Below are positions 3,580 to 11,494 of a stretch of 64,000 bases of DNA, piece by piece; within the stretch, counting starts at the first letter, position 1; every line of letters begins with the position of its first letter. The notes beneath the pieces are model-generated. The model saw nothing but the letters and a program-made list of their open reading frames with translations. It was not told where the DNA came from and did not search any database. The DNA comes from Xanthomarina arctica. GTDB taxonomy: Bacteria; Bacteroidota; Bacteroidia; Flavobacteriales; Flavobacteriaceae. The stretch spans positions 186,001 to 250,000 of the forward strand of contig NZ_BMFQ01000001.1 in assembly GCF_014638915.1 (NCBI RefSeq), written 5' to 3'. The position numbers were made by a program, and so were the translations under genes.

Positions 3580-3621
3580 AAAAAAAAGTCTTATTTTTAT
3601 TTTCTTAAATATAATGCAAAT

Positions 3622-5136
3622 ATGCCAATTCCTATAGTAAATTCTATTGCTTCCTGGTTTTTAAAAAAACGATTCCATCAAATTGATTTGTTTTTAAAGT
3701 ATCCTAATGAAGTACAGCAGGAATTACTTTTACAACTTATCAATAAGGCAAAAGACACGGAAATTGGTAAACAATATGGTTTTGAATCTATTACAGATTA
3801 TAAAACATTTGCTGATCGCGTTCCCGTCTCAACCTACGAAGAATGCCAAGAAAACATTGAACGTTCAAGAAAAGGAGTGAATAATATTTTTTGGCCTCAG
3901 CCTATTAAATGGTTTGCAAAATCTAGTGGCACAACCAATGCAAAAAGTAAATTTATTCCTGTAAGCGAAGACTCTCTTGAAGATTGTCATTACGCAGCTA
4001 GTAAAGATTTGCTTTGCATGTATTTGAACAATAATGAAAATTCGCAATTATTTACAGGTAAAAGTTTACGACTTGGAGGTAGTAAAGAACTTTACAAAGA
4101 GAATGGGACAACCTTTGGCGACCTTTCCGCAATTTTAATAGATAACATGCCTTTTTGGGCAGAATTTAGTAGTACTCCTAGTAATAAAGTCTCTTTAATG
4201 AGCAATTGGGAAGAAAAAATGCAGGCTATTGTAGACGAAACTATTCAAGAAAATGTGACTAGTTTGGCTGGGGTTCCATCTTGGATGTTGGTTCTACTAA
4301 ACAATGTTTTAGAAACCACAGGAAAAAATAGTTTACTTGATATTTGGCCTAACTTAGAAGTATATTTTCATGGAGGCGTAAGTTTTCTTCCTTATAAAGA
4401 GCAATACAAAAATATTCTACCAAAGAAAGATTTTAGATATTATGAAATCTACAATGCTTCTGAAGGCTTTTTCGCCATCCAAGACCAAAACAATTCTAGC
4501 GAATTACTTCTTATGTTAGATTATGGTATTTTTTATGAGTTTATTTCCATGGAAACCTATGGCACTAAAAATGAAAAAATTATTCCACTTAGCGAAGTAG
4601 AAATGAACGTAAACTACGCTGTTATTATTACTACCAATGCAGGACTCTGGCGCTACAAAATTGGCGACACCGTTAGATTTACATCCATAAGTCCTTACAG
4701 AATTAAAGTCTCAGGAAGAACGAAACACCATATAAATGCTTTTGGAGAAGAGTTAATTATCGAAAACGCAGAAGATGCTTTAAAAAAAGTATGCAAAAAA
4801 ACCAAAGCTGAAATAGTGGAATATACCGCTGCCCCTATTTTTATGCAAGGCAAGGAAAAAGGAGCTCATGAGTGGTTGATAGAGTTCAAAACACCTCCCG
4901 CAGACATCCATTATTTTAATGAGCTGTTTGATAATGCCTTAAAAGCCTTGAATTCTGATTACGAAGCCAAGCGATACAACAACATGACACTTAATAAACC
5001 AACCATTCATATTGCAAGAGAACAACTGTTCTACGACTGGCTGAAGCAAAACAATAAACTTGGAGGACAACACAAAGTACCAAGACTCTCTAATACTCGT
5101 GATTATTTAGATGCCTTATTGGATCTGAACAAATAG
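3622..5136 (+). CDS. GH3 auxin-responsive promoter family protein (acyl-adenylating enzyme)
   Basis: A 504-residue protein of the GH3 branch of the ANL adenylating superfamily. Visible are an N-terminal helical segment, the ATP phosphate-binding loop WFAKSSGTTNAKSKFIPVS (near residue 92), the nucleotide motif YEIYNASEGFFAIQD, the hinge region GLWRYKIGDTVRFTSISPYR, and a C-terminal domain. In plants GH3 enzymes couple amino acids to jasmonate or auxin; substrates of the common bacterial homologues are not known. The ATG at 3622 (protein starts MPIPIVNSIASW) is preferred over an upstream in-frame start at 3568, which would overlap the divergent DUF2797 gene and add a non-conserved basic stretch. 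Confidence 0.88.
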   Translation: MPIPIVNSIASWFLKKRFHQIDLFLKYPNEVQQELLLQLINKAKDTEIGKQYGFESITDYKTFADRVPVSTYEECQENIERSRKGVNNIFWPQPIKWFAKSSGTTNAKSKFIPVSEDSLEDCHYAASKDLLCMYLNNNENSQLFTGKSLRLGGSKELYKENGTTFGDLSAILIDNMPFWAEFSSTPSNKVSLMSNWEEKMQAIVDETIQENVTSLAGVPSWMLVLLNNVLETTGKNSLLDIWPNLEVYFHGGVSFLPYKEQYKNILPKKDFRYYEIYNASEGFFAIQDQNNSSELLLMLDYGIFYEFISMETYGTKNEKIIPLSEVEMNVNYAVIITTNAGLWRYKIGDTVRFTSISPYRIKVSGRTKHHINAFGEELIIENAEDALKKVCKKTKAEIVEYTAAPIFMQGKEKGAHEWLIEFKTPPADIHYFNELFDNALKALNSDYEAKRYNNMTLNKPTIHIAREQLFYDWLKQNNKLGGQHKVPRLSNTRDYLDALLDLNK

Positions 5137-5473: not shown

Positions 5474-6346
5474 TTATTGCTGTTCCTTTAATATATTTAT
5501 AAAATCGTCTGGATGAGGCACGTAAGTAAGACGTTTATCATCCATAAACCCTTCCATAATACCTGGATTGCCAGACACCAATAAGGGAATACCTGCTTGT
5601 GTTATAATAGTGTCCAACTTGAGTTTTAATGATTCATGAGTTGGTGTAATAAACATTGATAACATTACTTTAGGCTGAACAAGTTCAACAACCTGCTTGA
5701 TATTTTCAGTAGGCACATTCTGCCCTAGATAATATACTTTCCATCCCATTTTTCTCGCAACAAAATAGGCGAGTAACAACCCTATTTCATGATGTTCGCT
5801 TTCTGTTAAGAACATTAAAATAATTGGAGCATTTTTATCGGCATTGGGTAATTGATCGATGGCTGAAAACATTTTTTTCTTAATCAAATTAGAAACAAAA
5901 TGCTCTTGAGCAGGCATGACCTTATTAATGCCCCAAAGCACACCAATCTGATTTAAAAAAGGATATATTAATTGGGTAGTTGTATGTAATAGTCCCTTTT
6001 TTTTAATCTGAGCATTTAATACATTGTTAAAAGCAACTTCGTCCATTTCAAGTGTACTCACGACTAGGGAGCTAATGTCATCCTCTTGTTTACCAAGGAT
6101 TAATTTGGTGGCAACAACACTGTTGATATCTTCTTCCGACATTTTATCAATCTTAGAAATCCGATACCCATTTCGGGTAAGAATACTAATATTCATCAAT
6201 TTTTTCAATTGAGTATCTGTATAATACCTAATGTTTGTTTCGGTTCTTGATGGTGCTAAGAAACTATATCTGGTTTCCCATTTACGTAATGTATGTGCTT
6301 TAACACCTGTTAACGCAACAATTTGCGCCATAGAATATGTACTCAT
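5474..6346 (-). CDS. CarH/LitR-type MerR family regulator with B12-binding photosensory domain
   Basis: A 290-residue protein in three parts: MerR winged helix (about 1-75; VKAHTLRKWETRYSFLAPSR), a four-helix cap domain (about 85-170) and a cobalamin-binding Rossmann domain (about 173-285). The cap has the W-x9-E-H motif (W138, E148, H149), and the B12 domain has E-x-H-x2-G with ligand His186 (SEHHEIG). In CarH these residues bind adenosylcobalamin; in the dark the protein is a DNA-bound tetramer that represses carotenoid genes, and light releases it. The GG loop is GN here (SGNPG). ATG 6346 gives the standard MSTYSMAQ start; an in-frame start at 6397 would add residues lying in the control region. 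It is divergent from the fasciclin gene and next to the crt genes, which fits carotenoid control. Confidence 0.9.
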   Translation of the reverse strand: MSTYSMAQIVALTGVKAHTLRKWETRYSFLAPSRTETNIRYYTDTQLKKLMNISILTRNGYRISKIDKMSEEDINSVVATKLILGKQEDDISSLVVSTLEMDEVAFNNVLNAQIKKKGLLHTTTQLIYPFLNQIGVLWGINKVMPAQEHFVSNLIKKKMFSAIDQLPNADKNAPIILMFLTESEHHEIGLLLAYFVARKMGWKVYYLGQNVPTENIKQVVELVQPKVMLSMFITPTHESLKLKLDTIITQAGIPLLVSGNPGIMEGFMDDKRLTYVPHPDDFINILKEQQ

Positions 6347-6399
6347 GTCTAATGTTTTACCAGACAAAGTTAAACAAAAAATATTGTTAAACGACAAAA
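6346..6399 (-). promoter_or_regulatory. Candidate carH promoter region with degenerate half-sites
   Basis: Between the carH start and the two strong dyads lie TGTCTAA (6346-6352) and two copies of GTTAAAC (6369-6375 and 6386-6392), which resemble the half-site sTTRGACA with one or two mismatches. On the minus strand a TATTTTTTG (one base longer than TAnnTTTG) lies about 18 bp after a TTG. Autoregulation is plausible but inferred. Confidence 0.3.
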
Positions 6400-6412
6400 C
6401 TCAAAAATGTTT

Positions 6413-6442
6413 TGTCTAACTTTTTTACTTTTTACTTGGACA
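6413..6442. promoter_or_regulatory. Operator dyad 1 for the CarH-type regulator
   Basis: TGTCTAAC (6413-6420), a 13-bp spacer, and ACTTGGACA (6434-6442) form an inverted repeat of the half-site TGTCYAAs. The right arm contains the TTG (6436-6438) proposed as the -33 box of the fasciclin promoter. Its spacer length equals that of dyad 2. Binding by the adjacent MerR protein is inferred. Confidence 0.7.
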
Positions 6443-6467
6443 GTATTAAAATTTATTACTATATTTG
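6436..6467 (+). promoter_or_regulatory. Fasciclin gene promoter (TTG-N21-TATATTTG)
   Basis: TTG at 6436-6438 and a perfect TAnnTTTG box TATATTTG at 6460-6467 are 21 bp apart. The -33 box lies inside dyad 1 and the last bases of the -7 box inside dyad 2. Transcription should start near 6473, leaving a leader of about 25 nt. Confidence 0.65.
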
Positions 6468-6495
6468 TCCAAGTTATAATTAAAATACTTAGACA
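6466..6495. promoter_or_regulatory. Operator dyad 2 for the CarH-type regulator
   Basis: TGTCCAAGT (6466-6474), a 13-bp spacer, and CTTAGACA (6488-6495) repeat the architecture of dyad 1. In addition ACTTGGACA/TGTCCAAGT (6434/6466) and TTTTGTCTAA/TTAGACAAAA (6410/6489) are perfect long-range inverted pairs. The dyad centres (6427.5 and 6480.5) are 53 bp apart, about five turns of B-DNA. Dyad 2 covers the predicted transcription start and ends 2 bp before the ATG. Confidence 0.7.
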
Positions 6496-6497
6496 AA

Positions 6498-7925
6498 ATG
6501 AAAACAAAACTTTTTTACCTCGTATTATTTAGCCTATCTATATTTATTACTTCTTGTAGTAATGACGATGATAGCACGCTGCCTACTCCAACAACTCCAC
6601 AACAGGAAAATATTGTTGAGATAGCGTTAGGAACTCCAGAATTAAGCTCTTTGGTTGCCGCTTTATCTAGAGCAGAAGGAGATTTAGTAAACGTATTAAG
6701 TGGTAACGGACCATTTACAGTACTTGCTCCAACAAACGCAGCCTTTGCTACGTTTCTTTCAGACAACGGTTTTAGCTCTTTAGAGCAAGTACCGACCGAT
6801 GTTTTATCTCAAATTCTGTTAAATCATGTAATTATGGCCGATGTTAAGGCTAGCGATTTAATATCTTCAGGTTCTGGATATGCTTCAGGTAGCGCCACAG
6901 GTGCAGGCGATCAAAATATCAGTATCTTTTTTGATACCATGAATGGTGTTATGTTTAACGGCGTAGCCTCTGTAACAACAGCAGATGTAGATGCATCTAA
7001 CGGAACTATTCATATAATAAATGCCGTATTAGGTTTACCAGATGTTGTGGATCATGCACTTGCAAATCCATCTTTTTCAAGTTTAGTTGCTGCTTTAGGA
7101 GCTGCAGACGGGAATTTGGTAAATGTTCTTCAAGGAACTGGACCTTTTACAATTCTAGCACCAGACAATAATGCATTTACTACATTTTTAGATGGAACTC
7201 CTTTAGGAAACGTTGATACTGCAGCACTTTCTCAAATACTATTAAATCACGTGATTATAGGGTCTTCAATTACTTCTAGTTACTTAGTTGATGCTGGTTC
7301 AGGATATACAAATACAGGAGCAACAGGAGCTGGCGGAAATGCTATGAGTTTATACTTTAATACAAGTAGTGGTGTTATGTTTAACGGATTTTCTACAGTG
7401 GCTCAAGCAGATGTTGTAGGAACCAATGGAATTATCCATGCAGTAGATACTGTTATAGATATTCCAACAGTTGTAACCTTTGCTGTTGCAGATCCTAACT
7501 TCTCAACATTAGTAACAGCTTTAACAGATTTAACTCCGGCAACCGACTTTGTATCTATTTTATCTAGAACTCAAGGAGGTAATGGAGATGGCATTAACCC
7601 AGACTTTACGGTTTTCGCACCAACAAACGATGCATTCTCTGCATTAGGAACAGTACCTGCCGAAGGAGTTTTAACCCAAGTTTTATTACACCACGTTATT
7701 GCTGGGGCAAATGTAATTTCTGGCGATTTAAACAATCCAGGAAACACAACTGCTTCTACTTTAGAAGGAGATAATATAACCATTACACTTCCTGGAACAG
7801 GAGGGAATATTGCAAATATTACAGATGGTTCAGGAGCGACAGATATTGGAATAATAGCTGTAGATGTTCAAGCTGGAAATGGCGTGATCCATGTTATTAA
7901 CAAAGTGATGATTCCAAATCTATAA
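6498..7925 (+). CDS. Surface lipoprotein with three fasciclin (FAS1) domains
   Basis: A 475-residue lipoprotein: signal peptide with lipobox (FITSC, lipidated Cys at about residue 20), a short Asp/Pro linker, then three FAS1 domains (about 45-180, 185-325 and 330-475). Each domain shows the FAS1 H1/H2 blocks: FTVLAPTNAAF, FTILAPDNNAF and FTVFAPTNDAF, then NGTIHIINAVL, NGIIHAVDTVI and NGVIHVINKVM. FAS1 domains mediate adhesion or matrix contact; the bacterial role here is unknown. The gene is divergent from the CarH-type regulator and its promoter is overlapped by both predicted operators, so it is the most direct candidate target. A terminator and 111 bp separate it from crtI. Confidence 0.93.
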   Translation: MKTKLFYLVLFSLSIFITSCSNDDDSTLPTPTTPQQENIVEIALGTPELSSLVAALSRAEGDLVNVLSGNGPFTVLAPTNAAFATFLSDNGFSSLEQVPTDVLSQILLNHVIMADVKASDLISSGSGYASGSATGAGDQNISIFFDTMNGVMFNGVASVTTADVDASNGTIHIINAVLGLPDVVDHALANPSFSSLVAALGAADGNLVNVLQGTGPFTILAPDNNAFTTFLDGTPLGNVDTAALSQILLNHVIIGSSITSSYLVDAGSGYTNTGATGAGGNAMSLYFNTSSGVMFNGFSTVAQADVVGTNGIIHAVDTVIDIPTVVTFAVADPNFSTLVTALTDLTPATDFVSILSRTQGGNGDGINPDFTVFAPTNDAFSALGTVPAEGVLTQVLLHHVIAGANVISGDLNNPGNTTASTLEGDNITITLPGTGGNIANITDGSGATDIGIIAVDVQAGNGVIHVINKVMIPNL

Positions 7926-7990
7926 AATAAATAAATCGTCTTTAAATTATTATGAAAAAGAATAGGCTATAGTTGGTTGGTTAGTAGTAA

Positions 7991-8025
7991 GCCGATAACT
8001 CTTATGGTTGTCGGTTTATTTTTTT
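7991..8025 (+). terminator. Intrinsic terminator between the fasciclin gene and crtI
   Basis: CCGATAAC (7992-7999) pairs with GTTGTCGG (8007-8014; one G-U pair) and is followed by TTTATTTTTTTT. No clear TAnnTTTG box follows before crtI, so crtI may depend on read-through, making this a possible partial terminator. Confidence 0.7.
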
Positions 8026-8036
8026 AAAAAAGACAA

Positions 8037-9500
8037 ATGAAAACAAAAAAAATTATCATTATTGGTTCAGGATTTTCTTCACTTTCAGCCTCTTGCTACT
8101 TAGCTAATCAAGGTTATGAAGTAACTGTTTTAGAGAAGAACAAAACTGTAGGAGGTAGAGCTAGACAATTAAAAAGAGATGGCTTCACGTTTGATATTGG
8201 TCCAACTTTTTATTGGATGCCAGATGTTTTTGAACGTTTTTTTAACGATTTCAATACCTCAGTCTCGGCGCACTATACCCTAAACAAACTTAATCCTGCT
8301 TATCAGATTTATTTTGGCAAAAAAGATTCAGTATCCATATCAGATAATTTTGAAGATATCAAGAATACCTTCGAGCGTATAGAAAAAGGAAGTGGTAAAA
8401 AGCTTCAAAAATTTATTAATAAGGCTCATAGGAATTATGATATTGCCATTAAAGATTTAGTTTACAAACCAGGAGAACATGTTTTTGAAATCATTAATCG
8501 TAAAACTTTCTTAAAACTTTATGAGTTCATTTTAACCATAAAAAATCAAGTTTCTGGTTATGTGAAAAACAAACAACTTCAAAAAATATTAGAATTTCCA
8601 GTGTTATTTCTGGGTGCAAAACCAAGTAACACACCTTCATTTTATAATTTCATGAATTATGCCGATTTCAAACTTGGCACTTGGCATCCGCAAGGAGGCA
8701 TGTACGAAGTTGTAAAAGCCATGACTACTCTTGCCCAAAGTTTAGGTGTGAAAATTATTTCTGATAGTGAGGTTGAAAATATAGAAATCGAAAACAACAC
8801 AGTAACAGGAGTGACTACAAAAACTAGTTTTTTTCCTTGTGATATTTTATTGAGTGGAGCGGATTATCATCATACAGAAACCTTATTACCACAAAAATTA
8901 AGACAATACTCAGAAGCTTATTGGGACAAGAAGGTATTTGCGCCTTCTGCCCTATTATTTTATGTTGGTTTTGATAAAAAACTAGAAAATGTATCTCATC
9001 ATACCTTATTTTTTGATACCGATTTTGACGCTCATGCAAAAACCATTTACGACACCAAAGAATGGGCAGAAAAACCGTTGTTCTATGCTAGTTTTCCAAG
9101 TATCACAGATGCTTCAACCGCACCAAAAGGACAAGAAGCAGGTATTTTTTTAATTCCTATTGCACCAGATGTTGAAGATACACCAGAAATTAGAGAACAT
9201 TATTTCAAGCAGTTAATTGATAGAGTCGAAGATATAACCGGTGAAACTTTAAAAGAGCACATTCTATTTAAAGAATCCTATTGTGTAAATAATTTTAAAG
9301 ACGATTACCATTCCTATAAAGGCAATGCTTACGGTTTGGCAAATACACTCACACAAACCCATGTGCTTAGGCCAAAATTAAAAAGTAAAAAAGTAGATAA
9401 TCTGTATTTCTGTGGCCAACTGACAGTTCCCGGACCAGGAGTTCCACCTTCCTTAATTTCAGGAAAAATTGTGAGTGATTTAATATTAAAATATCATTAA
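8037..9500 (+). CDS. crtI: Phytoene desaturase (CrtI type)
   Basis: A 487-residue FAD-dependent desaturase that converts phytoene to lycopene at the cytoplasmic membrane. The N-terminal dinucleotide-binding fold is clear (IIGSGFSSLSASCYLANQGY, then EVTVLEKN and the GGRARQLKRDGFTFDIGPT block). The C-terminal family signature is YFCGQLTVPGPGVPPSLISG. Length is normal for bacterial CrtI (~490). The stop at 9500 abuts the crtB start at 9502, so crtI and crtB form a tight operon with crtZ and crtY. An alternative in this family is a 4,4'-diapophytoene desaturase, but the neighbouring crtZ and crtY favour the C40 pathway. Confidence 0.93.
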   Translation: MKTKKIIIIGSGFSSLSASCYLANQGYEVTVLEKNKTVGGRARQLKRDGFTFDIGPTFYWMPDVFERFFNDFNTSVSAHYTLNKLNPAYQIYFGKKDSVSISDNFEDIKNTFERIEKGSGKKLQKFINKAHRNYDIAIKDLVYKPGEHVFEIINRKTFLKLYEFILTIKNQVSGYVKNKQLQKILEFPVLFLGAKPSNTPSFYNFMNYADFKLGTWHPQGGMYEVVKAMTTLAQSLGVKIISDSEVENIEIENNTVTGVTTKTSFFPCDILLSGADYHHTETLLPQKLRQYSEAYWDKKVFAPSALLFYVGFDKKLENVSHHTLFFDTDFDAHAKTIYDTKEWAEKPLFYASFPSITDASTAPKGQEAGIFLIPIAPDVEDTPEIREHYFKQLIDRVEDITGETLKEHILFKESYCVNNFKDDYHSYKGNAYGLANTLTQTHVLRPKLKSKKVDNLYFCGQLTVPGPGVPPSLISGKIVSDLILKYH

Positions 9501-9501
9501 A

Positions 9502-10338
9502 ATGAAACAACTTTTCGATACTTCCAGCCTAAAGTGTAGCAAAATTGTTACAAATACGTATAGTACGTCGTTTTCTTTAGGCATTAAATTATTTGCACCT
9601 TCAGTACGTCCACATATCTATGCCATTTATGGGTTTGTACGTTATGCAGATGAAATTGTAGATTCTTTTGAAGGATATAATCAGAAAGATTTATTTCAGG
9701 ATTTTGTTGAAGACTATAAGAAATCTTTAGATAGAAAAATAAGTTTAAATCCCATAATTAATGCCTTTCAGGAAGTTGTTCATCATTACAAATTATATAC
9801 ATACGCTGATGATTTTCTAAAACGAATGGAAGCAGATTTATATGTTACAGATTACACAACCAAGGAAGCTTATGACAATTACATTTATGGTTCAGCAGAT
9901 GTAGTTGGTTTGATGTGTTTACGTGTGTTTGTAAATAATGATGAAGAGAAATTCAACCAATTAAAAGATTCGGCAAAACATTTAGGTTCCGCTTTTCAAA
10001 AAGTAAATTTTTTAAGAGACATTAAGGATGATATAGAGTTATTAGGACGTTCCTATTTCCCTAATTTATCCCATAACACATTGAATAACGGCAACAAAAA
10101 AGAGATTATAGCAGATATTGACCGAGATTTAGAAATAGCTTACAAAGGGATTATCCAGCTACCTTTAGAAAGTAAATTGGGTGTTTATATTGCTTACAGA
10201 TATTATTTAAAATTGCTTAAGAAACTAAAAAAGGCAGATTCTGAAAAAATACTAAGTGGCCGTATCCGGATTTCTAATGCGTTGAAAGTTTTTATTCTTA
10301 CTAAGTCGTATATCAGATATAAGTTAAACTTTTTTTAA
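9502..10338 (+). CDS. crtB: Phytoene synthase
   Basis: A 278-residue squalene/phytoene synthase that condenses two geranylgeranyl diphosphates to phytoene. Both Mg-diphosphate-binding DxxxD motifs are visible: D50-E-I-V-D54 in VRYADEIVDSF, and D173 to D177 in NFLRDIKDDIELLGRSYFP. The substrate-tunnel segment YIYGSADVVGLM lies between them. It overlaps nothing but starts 1 bp after the crtI stop, and crtZ follows after 22 bp. Hydroxylase and cyclase neighbours support a C40 rather than a C30 substrate. Confidence 0.93.
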   Translation: MKQLFDTSSLKCSKIVTNTYSTSFSLGIKLFAPSVRPHIYAIYGFVRYADEIVDSFEGYNQKDLFQDFVEDYKKSLDRKISLNPIINAFQEVVHHYKLYTYADDFLKRMEADLYVTDYTTKEAYDNYIYGSADVVGLMCLRVFVNNDEEKFNQLKDSAKHLGSAFQKVNFLRDIKDDIELLGRSYFPNLSHNTLNNGNKKEIIADIDRDLEIAYKGIIQLPLESKLGVYIAYRYYLKLLKKLKKADSEKILSGRIRISNALKVFILTKSYIRYKLNFF

Positions 10339-10360: not shown

Positions 10361-10810
10361 ATGAACATTCTATTATACATTTTAATAACCCTTGCTACTT
10401 TTTCACTAATGGAATTAGTAACATGGCTCACGCATAAATATGTGATGCATGGATTTTTATGGATTTTACATGCAGACCATCATCAACCTAAATACCCACA
10501 TGTGTTTGAAAAAAATGATACTTTTTTTATCATTTTTGCCACTCCAAGTATCCTCTTATTCTATTTTGGAGCCATTCCAGAATTAAACTTTATGTTTTTT
10601 ATTGGTTTGGGGATTTTCTTCTATGGTTTAACCTATTTTTTAATTCATGATGTGTTAATTCATCAGCGCTTTAAATGGTTTAAAAACACGAAGAATAAAT
10701 TTCTTATCGGTTTACGAAAAGCTCATAAAGTGCATCATAAACATTTAGGCAAGGAAAAAGGCGAATGTTTTGGAATGTTATTTGTTCCAGAGAAATATCA
10801 TAATAAATAA
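10361..10810 (+). CDS. crtZ: Beta-carotene hydroxylase (fatty acid hydroxylase/sterol desaturase superfamily)
   Basis: A 149-residue membrane di-iron hydroxylase with the eight-plus histidine set of CrtZ: H25-x4-H30, H37-x2-H40-H41, H96-x4-H101 and H122-x2-H125-H126, between about four hydrophobic helices. CrtZ hydroxylates the beta-ionone rings of beta-carotene to give zeaxanthin, the usual yellow pigment of marine flavobacteria. Its place between crtB and the cyclase gene supports this over a sterol desaturase activity. The stop is 3 bp before the next start. Confidence 0.9.
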   Translation: MNILLYILITLATFSLMELVTWLTHKYVMHGFLWILHADHHQPKYPHVFEKNDTFFIIFATPSILLFYFGAIPELNFMFFIGLGIFFYGLTYFLIHDVLIHQRFKWFKNTKNKFLIGLRKAHKVHHKHLGKEKGECFGMLFVPEKYHNK

Positions 10811-10813
10811 CTC

Positions 10814-11494
10814 ATGGAAGTCTACACCTATTTATTGGTAAATTTAGCTTGTGTTTTCGTGCCTTTTATAGCTAGCTTTTATCCGAAACACGCGTTTTAT
10901 AAAGATTGTAAACCATTTTTCAAAGCCAATCTTATTGTAACTTTATTATTCGTGATTTGGGATTCTATATTTACAGGAATTGGTGTTTGGGGTTTTAATG
11001 AAACCTATTTGACAGGTATTAAAATAGGTAATTTACCAATTGAAGAGGTTTTATTTTTTATCTGTATTCCTTACGCCTGTGTGTTTAGCTATTTTGCCTT
11101 TCAGTATTTTTTTAAACCGAATATATTACAGAGGTCTCAAACTTTTATCTCTTATATTCTTATTGCGGTTTTGCTAATTGTAGCCATTTTCAATTACAAC
11201 AAATTATACACAGCTGTCACTTTTTTCGCCACCAGTTTTTATTTGATATTTCTAGTCTATAAAAAGACAGATTTATCCTTGCATTACCTCAGCTATTTTT
11301 TTGTATTGCCTTTCTTCTTTTTAAGCAATGGTGTATTAACCGGGAGTTTTTTGGTAGAACCTATTGTTTGGTACAACGATGCTGAAAATTTAGGAATCAG
11401 ATTATTTAACATCCCAATTGAAGATTCTGTTTATGGGTTATTAATGATTTTTATGAATATTGAATTGTATAACTATTTTAAGCGAAAGGTGTAA
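10814..11494 (+). CDS. Lycopene beta-cyclase, CrtYcd-like fused membrane type
   Basis: A 226-residue, seven-helix membrane protein made of two tandem lycopene cyclase domains. Each carries the Pro-x-Glu-(Glu/Asp) motif: LPIEEVLFFICIPY (about residue 75) and IPIEDSVYGLLMI (about residue 200). This is the fused form of the heterodimeric CrtYc/CrtYd cyclases found in Bacteroidota, fungi and archaea, and it closes both ends of lycopene to form beta-carotene. As last gene of crtI-crtB-crtZ-crtY it completes a predicted path from phytoene to zeaxanthin. It is convergent with a GNAT gene 4 bp away, leaving no room for a separate terminator. Confidence 0.9.
   Translation: MEVYTYLLVNLACVFVPFIASFYPKHAFYKDCKPFFKANLIVTLLFVIWDSIFTGIGVWGFNETYLTGIKIGNLPIEEVLFFICIPYACVFSYFAFQYFFKPNILQRSQTFISYILIAVLLIVAIFNYNKLYTAVTFFATSFYLIFLVYKKTDLSLHYLSYFFVLPFFFLSNGVLTGSFLVEPIVWYNDAENLGIRLFNIPIEDSVYGLLMIFMNIELYNYFKRKV

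Follow-up and report, generated by a model that had tools for sequence, protein, structure and literature searches.

Paired inverted repeats as a putative variant CarH operator at a carH-fasciclin promoter of Xanthomarina arctica

CarH is a model vitamin B12 (B12) light sensor and an optogenetic part. Here, we describe two inverted repeats (dyads) between a CarH-type regulator gene and a fasciclin gene of the flavobacterium Xanthomarina arctica; they lie in a stretch of 64,000 nucleotides (contig NZ_BMFQ01000001.1 of assembly GCF_014638915.1, positions 186,001 to 250,000 of the forward strand), which we call the window and whose own numbering is used throughout. The three-dimensional and operator data on CarH considered here come from Thermus, Bacillus, and Myxococcales, and the accessible parts of these reports describe TnnACA as the contact core of one CarH domain, repeated in tandem every 11 base pairs (bp) in the known operators (PMC9304148, PMC8156234). 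In Thermus thermophilus and Bacillus megaterium, as excerpted there, three or four such direct repeats cover the promoter of carotenoid genes. Myxococcales CarA/CarH use an operator of ~55 bp, also over the promoter, which was formerly described as two inverted repeats; according to the same partial sources, the inverted repeats decay across species and the direct repeats are functional. The closest described layout is that of the class II LitR proteins PmlR2 of Pseudomonas mendocina and PplR1 of P. putida, for which the available sections of PMC9758184 report two repeated sites that each consist of two TGTACA blocks; one covers the -35 region, the other lies between the transcription start and the ATG, and folM is named among the light-induced genes.

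The X. arctica locus shares several features with these systems. Like CarH of Thermus and Bacillus, the adjacent regulator joins a MerR DNA-binding domain to a B12-binding helical bundle and a Rossmann fold and carries the Wx9EH and ExHxxG motifs. The half-site (TTRGACA/TTAAACA) contains TnnACA, carotenoid genes adjoin carH, and the dyads cover the fasciclin promoter in two copies, as in class II LitR. The arrangement differs, however: the half-sites are inverted around a 14-bp spacer (TGTYYAAS-N14-STTRRACA, 30 bp) and this form is conserved, whereas the published operator nnnnTnnACAn as tandem 11-bp direct repeats is absent at the dyads, as is the 24-bp class II form TGTACA-N12-TGTACA known from the part of PMC9758184 at hand. 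PmlR2 also differs in responding through a LOV protein (PMC9758184), whereas Wx9EH and ExHxxG are kept here. The initial annotation had not recognized the half-site as the published CarH operator of other phyla and had suggested a flavobacterial variant; the inverted arrangement is indeed different, but the core is the published one. We consider it likely that the dyads serve as operators for the neighbouring B12-binding regulator of MerR type, a member of a CarH branch, with a dark repression that is lifted by light. A system of this kind is known as such; the novelty is the variant operator, and a literature search, in which most subscription journals were not covered, brought up no publication that describes an operator of CarH from Bacteroidota. 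The elements concerned are:

6413..6442, unstranded: dyad 1, TGTCTAAC-N14-CTTGGACA, spanning the -33-like TTG of the fasciclin promoter
6466..6495, unstranded: dyad 2, TGTCCAAG-N14-CTTAGACA, overlapping the end of the -7-like element and stopping 2 bp before the fasciclin ATG
6436..6438, + strand: -33-like TTG, 21 bp before the -7-like element
6460..6467, + strand: -7-like element TATATTTG (TAnnTTTG)
6346..6376, unstranded: probable third operator (autoregulation), a looser dyad TGTCTAAT-N15-GTTAAACA over the carH start codon

Dyads 1 and 2 both lie within the 151 bp that separate the start codons of carH and the fasciclin gene. Their four half-sites occupy 6413-6420 (+), 6435-6442 (-), 6466-6473 (+), and 6488-6495 (-). 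The initial annotation had recognized all four in alternating orientation, and it was right that a distance of 53 bp lies between the pair centres (6427.5 and 6480.5), that the TTG, which we take to be a -33 element from the Bacteroidota promoter form, lies within dyad 1, that dyad 2 shares part (the last two bases) of TATATTTG, and that dyad 2 ends two bases before the ATG at 6498. Two details needed correction, as the second half-site had been placed at 6434 and the spacer given as 13 bp, where 14 bp separate the 8-mers of both dyads. The paired arrangement of the half-sites is not a product of chance: the 3,906,292-base genome has just two exact matches to TGTCYAA-N15..17-TTRGACA, both of them at carH-fasciclin (control 0), and when the 151-bp intergenic region was dinucleotide-shuffled 20,000 times, no shuffle contained even a single such dyad.

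Conservation in relatives had been named beforehand as a check on the annotation. For loci whose regulator is at least 47% identical to that of the window (clade A), every pair of seven-letter half-sites with N16 between them was scored in the region upstream of carH. Two dyads, each matching in at least 12 of 14 letters and 51-53 bp apart, were found at 18 of the 22 loci; once two pairs of duplicates and the copy of the window itself are removed, both dyads recur in 15 of 19 distinct relatives. One of the clade A loci (L011) has the dyad pair directly before crtI, without a fasciclin gene between. When the intergenic region of the window was aligned with those of ten named relatives, identity was 0.85-0.93 in the half-sites, 0.80 and 0.71 in the two spacers, and 0.67 in the stretch between the dyads, and the -7-like element, with a mean column identity of 0.95, ranked above all other stretches compared. 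The right half of dyad 1 reads TTTGACA or GTTGACA in all ten aligned relatives, one letter from the consensus, and carries the TTGACA of the -33 element, so that some letters of the half-site are at the same time part of the -33 element. The third dyad, which the initial annotation did not include, keeps GTCTAAT in nine of the ten and GTTAAACA exactly in seven. These results support the annotated reading of operators of an adjacent CarH-type regulator over a promoter, since the dyads and their five-turn separation are conserved.

A sister form of the operator, TGTTTAAC-N14-GTTAAACA, is found in other Flavobacteriaceae with a second CarH clade (clade B; 31-39% identical to the window's regulator among the matches listed). 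When any spacer from 4 to 34 (31 spacers) was allowed between TGTTTAAC and GTTAAACA in 199 Flavobacteriaceae genomes, 65 of the 75 forward matches listed had a spacer of exactly 14. The exact N14 form amounts to at least 100 sites in 69 of the 199 genomes (control 2) and, among the matches listed, it is present in 68/165 genomes with CarH vs 1/34 without; here, CarH was called by a match at E 0.001, which takes in a few weak MerR hits. The sole CarH-negative genome with an exact site (G079) is 81% complete and holds this one site along with four one-mismatch sites; one-mismatch sites also occur in the CarH-negative genomes G016 (one) and G030 (two). Among 296 Flavobacteriales genomes, a set that overlaps in part with the first, the spacer was 14 in 42/64 sites and 15, the spacer of the window's third dyad, in 8/64, the second commonest value. 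In this set, N14 sites were present in 37/127 genomes with CarH (at E 1e-20) vs 0/169 without, and 21 of the sites lie within 1 kb of carH. The spacer of 14 also recurs in a second family (f7), at 22 of 26 sites.

The regulator itself appears to represent a Bacteroidota branch of CarH. It scores 57.7 bits for MerR_1 and 30.8 bits for B12-binding_2 (above cut-off), and 20.1 bits for B12-binding, below the cut-off of 32.1. The protein (P0001) aligns to Thermus CarH over residues 3-230, and the top 12 Foldseek PDB matches of its AlphaFold model (predicted local distance difference test, pLDDT, 86.9) are full-length Thermus CarH chains. Both cobalamin motifs are kept, and they recur in the CarH-type proteins that we read across loci (Wx9EH in 46/47, [DE]xH[DE]xG in 46/47). 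Equivalents of Trp131, Glu141, and His177 of Thermus CarH are retained as well, and the window genome encodes a cobalamin adenosyltransferase (209 bits).

Differences in the operator letters broadly track the recognition helix of the regulator. TGTC-type dyads are present in 7 of 11 genomes with an LRKWE helix (19 sites), none of which has a TGTT-type dyad, whereas genomes without LRKWE have TGTT-type dyads in 69/188 and TGTC-type dyads in 14/188 (17 sites, control level); for genomes outside clade A the latter count is 14/187 (17 sites), matching the control, in which 199 genomes gave 20 sites. A regulator that belongs to clade A by identity and has an LRIWE helix (G025) comes with a TGTT dyad. 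Exceptions to the rule are mixed dyads in G021 and G025 and a TGTC dyad beside a clade B carH in G185, and the window's third dyad combines TGTC and TGTT letters. The proposed association of Lys or Ile with TGTC or TGTT half-sites was read from 47 loci and is a correlation in few lineages.

Away from the window promoter, most dyads are single and stand before other genes, and the predicted operator form is not specific to the carH-fasciclin promoter. We surveyed 28 dyads in 20 hand-picked regions, mostly distant from carH, and confirmed target families with Pfam for representatives only; in 25 of the 28, a start codon lies 37-83 bp downstream of the dyad centre. A dyad precedes an operon of a TetR_C_23 protein and an ABC1/UbiB-type kinase in 11 of the 20 regions, fasciclin-like genes in four, and folE in one. 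In eight regions it precedes a protein of 139-145 amino acids (aa) of unknown family (L060 4329-4754 and orthologues; no Pfam match for the one member tested), usually followed by DUF2805 and flanked by photolyase-type genes, which makes for a candidate new light-response protein. The targets of clade A TGTC-type dyads comprise fasciclin, PTPS with folE, CIA30, the ABC1 operon, crtI, DPRP photolyase with DUF2805, photolyase, and glutathione peroxidase with TspO. Because photolyases repair light damage and pterins supply photolyase antennae, we read the genes behind the dyads as a predicted light regulon, which would be wider than that of Thermus and Bacillus CarH. At 41 sites, hand-chosen by the same criteria as the 49-site set below, TAnnTTTG falls into three registers relative to the dyad start, namely -6 (11 sites; the register of window dyad 2, helped by shared letters), +15 (seven), and +35 (nine), while ~13 sites have no strict form. 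All three registers place the protein over the core promoter, which fits repression.

Two sites elsewhere in the window genome stand out. One is a one-mismatch TGTCTAA-N16-TTAGACG (L092 4358-4387; C3:101357-101386 in the genome), ~150 bp before a gene for a 74-aa protein and a photolyase-type gene; it resembles the ABC1-operon dyad of a genome labelled as belonging to the same genus (G038) and is a weak own-genome candidate. The other is an exact TGTTTAAC..TTGAACA site at C1:886272.

How the operators would work can be sketched from their geometry. The 8-mer centres of a dyad are 22 bp apart (two 11-bp steps, about two helical turns), so both DNA-binding domains of one dimer could share one face of the helix. 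With the window dyads five turns apart, all four half-sites would come to lie on one face, and the pair could be occupied by one tetramer or by two dimers. A tetramer bridging both dyads is possible in the window but cannot be the general rule, because most sites elsewhere are single. Without light, the adenosylcobalamin-loaded regulator would sit on the dyads and block RNA polymerase at the fasciclin promoter and, through it, the expression of crt, and it would also damp carH via the third dyad at the carH start. Light would then cleave the cofactor, the regulator would release the DNA, and carotenoid and light-protection genes would be switched on. The same operator grammar would act ahead of light-repair and photoprotection genes in other Flavobacteriales. 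Extending this scheme, we tentatively propose a light regulon of Flavobacteriales, seen in two families, in which a CarH branch with an inverted-repeat operator and a His132-free light step uses Lys (LRKWE) or Ile (IRIWE) to set TGTC or TGTT.

Several observations weigh against operators of a light-responsive CarH. One or both dyads are missing at L008, L010, L012, and L014, that is, in 4 of the 19 relatives. Most CarH-positive genomes lack an exact TGTTTAAC-N14 site (97/165 in the Flavobacteriaceae set and 90/127 in the order set), and the Fisher p values for co-occurrence of CarH and dyad ignore shared ancestry. Seven loci from metagenome-assembled genomes (MAGs) of Flammeovirgaceae/Cyclobacteriaceae, with a CarH 48-49% identical, have no such dyad upstream of carH. 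Scanning the window genome with one mismatch allowed yielded 36 sites vs 40 in the control and no target past carH-fasciclin, and at the ABC1-kinase operon of this genome no dyad was found (best 10/14). The NCBIfam CarH equivalog NF052513 is the best match of the regulator, with 94.8 bits against a cut-off of 400. A strong terminator-like hairpin (7986-8020; 15 pairs, -20 kcal/mol, z -3.2) stands between the fasciclin gene and crtI, so control of crt in the window genome may be partial; a comparable hairpin with altered stem letters precedes crtI in four relatives (judged by eye; crtI was located in four of six), and a high fasciclin to low crt ratio may be its effect. Finally, the light-state ligand His132 of Thermus CarH has no counterpart: its position is never His in the 46 readable proteins, being Gly in the window protein, Gly/Thr in clade A, Gln/Ser in clade B, and Asn in the Flammeovirgaceae set. 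For this reason, the light step of the regulator may be either different from or weaker than that of Thermus.

The missing His132 also leads to the rival that CarH does bind the dyads, but with a signal that is not light itself and would instead be the amount of cobalamin, oxygen/redox, or a partner protein. The accessible portion of PMC10442372 links His132 ligation to the break-up of the tetramer and describes Thermus H132A as mostly tetrameric in light, and class II LitR of Pseudomonas is, in the excerpts of PMC9758184, B12-free and dependent on a LOV partner. Yet the same portion of PMC10442372 cites an earlier report in which H132A dissociated on illumination, Trp131, Glu141, and His177 equivalents are kept here, and the targets are light-protection genes; on balance, a signal other than light seems rather unlikely to us. 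Palindromes at the promoter of their own gene are frequent targets of TetR-type regulators, and the operon with the TetR-like protein (TetR_C_23) and the ABC1 kinase stands behind the dyad in 11 of the 20 carH-distant regions, which could mean that this protein is the binder and CarH a co-regulated neighbour. We judge this improbable, given that the half-site holds the CarH core, that dyad presence follows carH, that the second-family sites lie between carH and crt genes, that the window genome has the TetR/ABC1 operon without a dyad and yet two dyads at carH, and that the single member run against Pfam gave no match to a TetR DNA-binding domain.

There is precedent, in the part of PMC9304148 that was available, for inverted repeats of Myxococcus CarA that were later reread as direct repeats, and the dyads could likewise hide tandem 11-bp repeats of the Thermus/Bacillus type, their inverted look being accidental. 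However, when the positions 11 and 22 bp away from each half-site were checked in 49 oriented dyads, TnnACA was present in no more than one of the 49 at any of them, and therefore the conserved form is inverted; the half-site columns themselves are fixed by selection and uninformative in this test. Excluded from this hand-made set were L072 and L076, whose target is unclear, L136 and L140, which have no clear target, L135, where no site reached the threshold, L151 with its spacer of 15, L092 (13/14), and, at L059 and L069, the second site of each. As the fixed spacer of 14 also recurs in unrelated promoters, we rejected hidden direct repeats as very improbable. Chance inverted repeats in an AT-rich intergenic region would find some footing in the single half-sites, which are about twofold enriched in the window (14 vs 6.5 +/- 2.7 expected; 14 was reached in 1 of 100 shuffles), but genome-wide uniqueness, the shuffles, conservation, and the spacer spectrum contradict this explanation, and we give it almost no credence.

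Two further candidates were rejected. Classical MerR activator sites resemble the dyads in being palindromes within a promoter that are read by a MerR-type DNA-binding domain. The metal-type sites, as outlined in the consulted part of PMC5045206, are 21-22 bp long within -35/-10 spacers of 19-20 bp, whereas the dyads measure 30 bp and lie over -33, over -7, or just upstream of -7; this does not fit the metal-regulator geometry and fits repression. MliR of Bizionia argentinensis is likewise MerR-like and from Flavobacteriaceae, but has 109 residues, acts in iron homeostasis, and, as far as the available text of PMC9478572 goes, lacks an effector/B12 domain.

If the dyads are CarH operators, the same protein family would read DNA in a second geometry, and Bacteroidota, which are rich in pigmented surface-water bacteria, would have a predictable and scannable light regulon. 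This opens testable questions. One is how an inverted repeat accommodates a tetramer or dimer that is built for direct repeats, and another is by what mechanism light acts when His132 is missing. It can also be asked what function a fasciclin lipoprotein under light control has, and which regulator drives light-induced pigment in Flavobacteriales. On the last point, the authors of a study of Chryseobacterium lacus report, in the passages accessible to us, that carotenoids are induced by light and that there are neither car nor lit genes (PMC7064467).

In the second family, six regions were fetched. Four have the dyad between carH and a gene for an extracytoplasmic function (ECF)-type sigma factor, followed by crtI; a fifth has it between carH and crtI, and the sixth before a fasciclin-lipoprotein-like gene. 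A repressor-to-sigma cascade from CarH dyad to ECF-type sigma factor to crtI is thus possible in this family. The four sigma factor genes, of which those in L142 and L143 were Pfam-tested, are:

L142 4036-4542: ECF-type sigma factor behind the CarH dyad
L143 4001-4504: ECF-type sigma factor behind the CarH dyad
L145 3519-4025: ECF-type sigma factor behind the CarH dyad
L147 4031-4552: ECF-type sigma factor behind the CarH dyad

About 100-200 bp upstream of carH, the Flammeovirgaceae/Cyclobacteriaceae MAG loci L043-L049 have a common block with TTTGTTCA and TTTTGAACTAAA, perhaps an operator of their own. In genome G135, a second CarH-like MerR/B12-binding protein (L130 3733-4620) adjoins crtI.

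In the window, carH is divergent from the fasciclin gene, which is followed by the carotenoid genes:

5474..6346, - strand: carH-type regulator, 290 aa, with a MerR DNA-binding domain, a B12-binding_2 helical bundle, and a weak B12-binding Rossmann domain
6498..7925, + strand: secreted protein with three fasciclin domains, the first gene past the operators
8037..9500, + strand: crtI/D phytoene desaturase (NCBIfam CrtID 723.6 bits, cut-off 640)
9502..10338, + strand: crtB phytoene synthase (SQS_PSY)
10361..10810, + strand: FA_hydroxylase-family protein, probable carotene hydroxylase (crtZ-like)
10814..11494, + strand: lycopene cyclase (Lycopene_cyc, CarR-type domain)

Directly past carH, at 3616-5133, lies a gene for a GH3-family protein with three GH3 domains.

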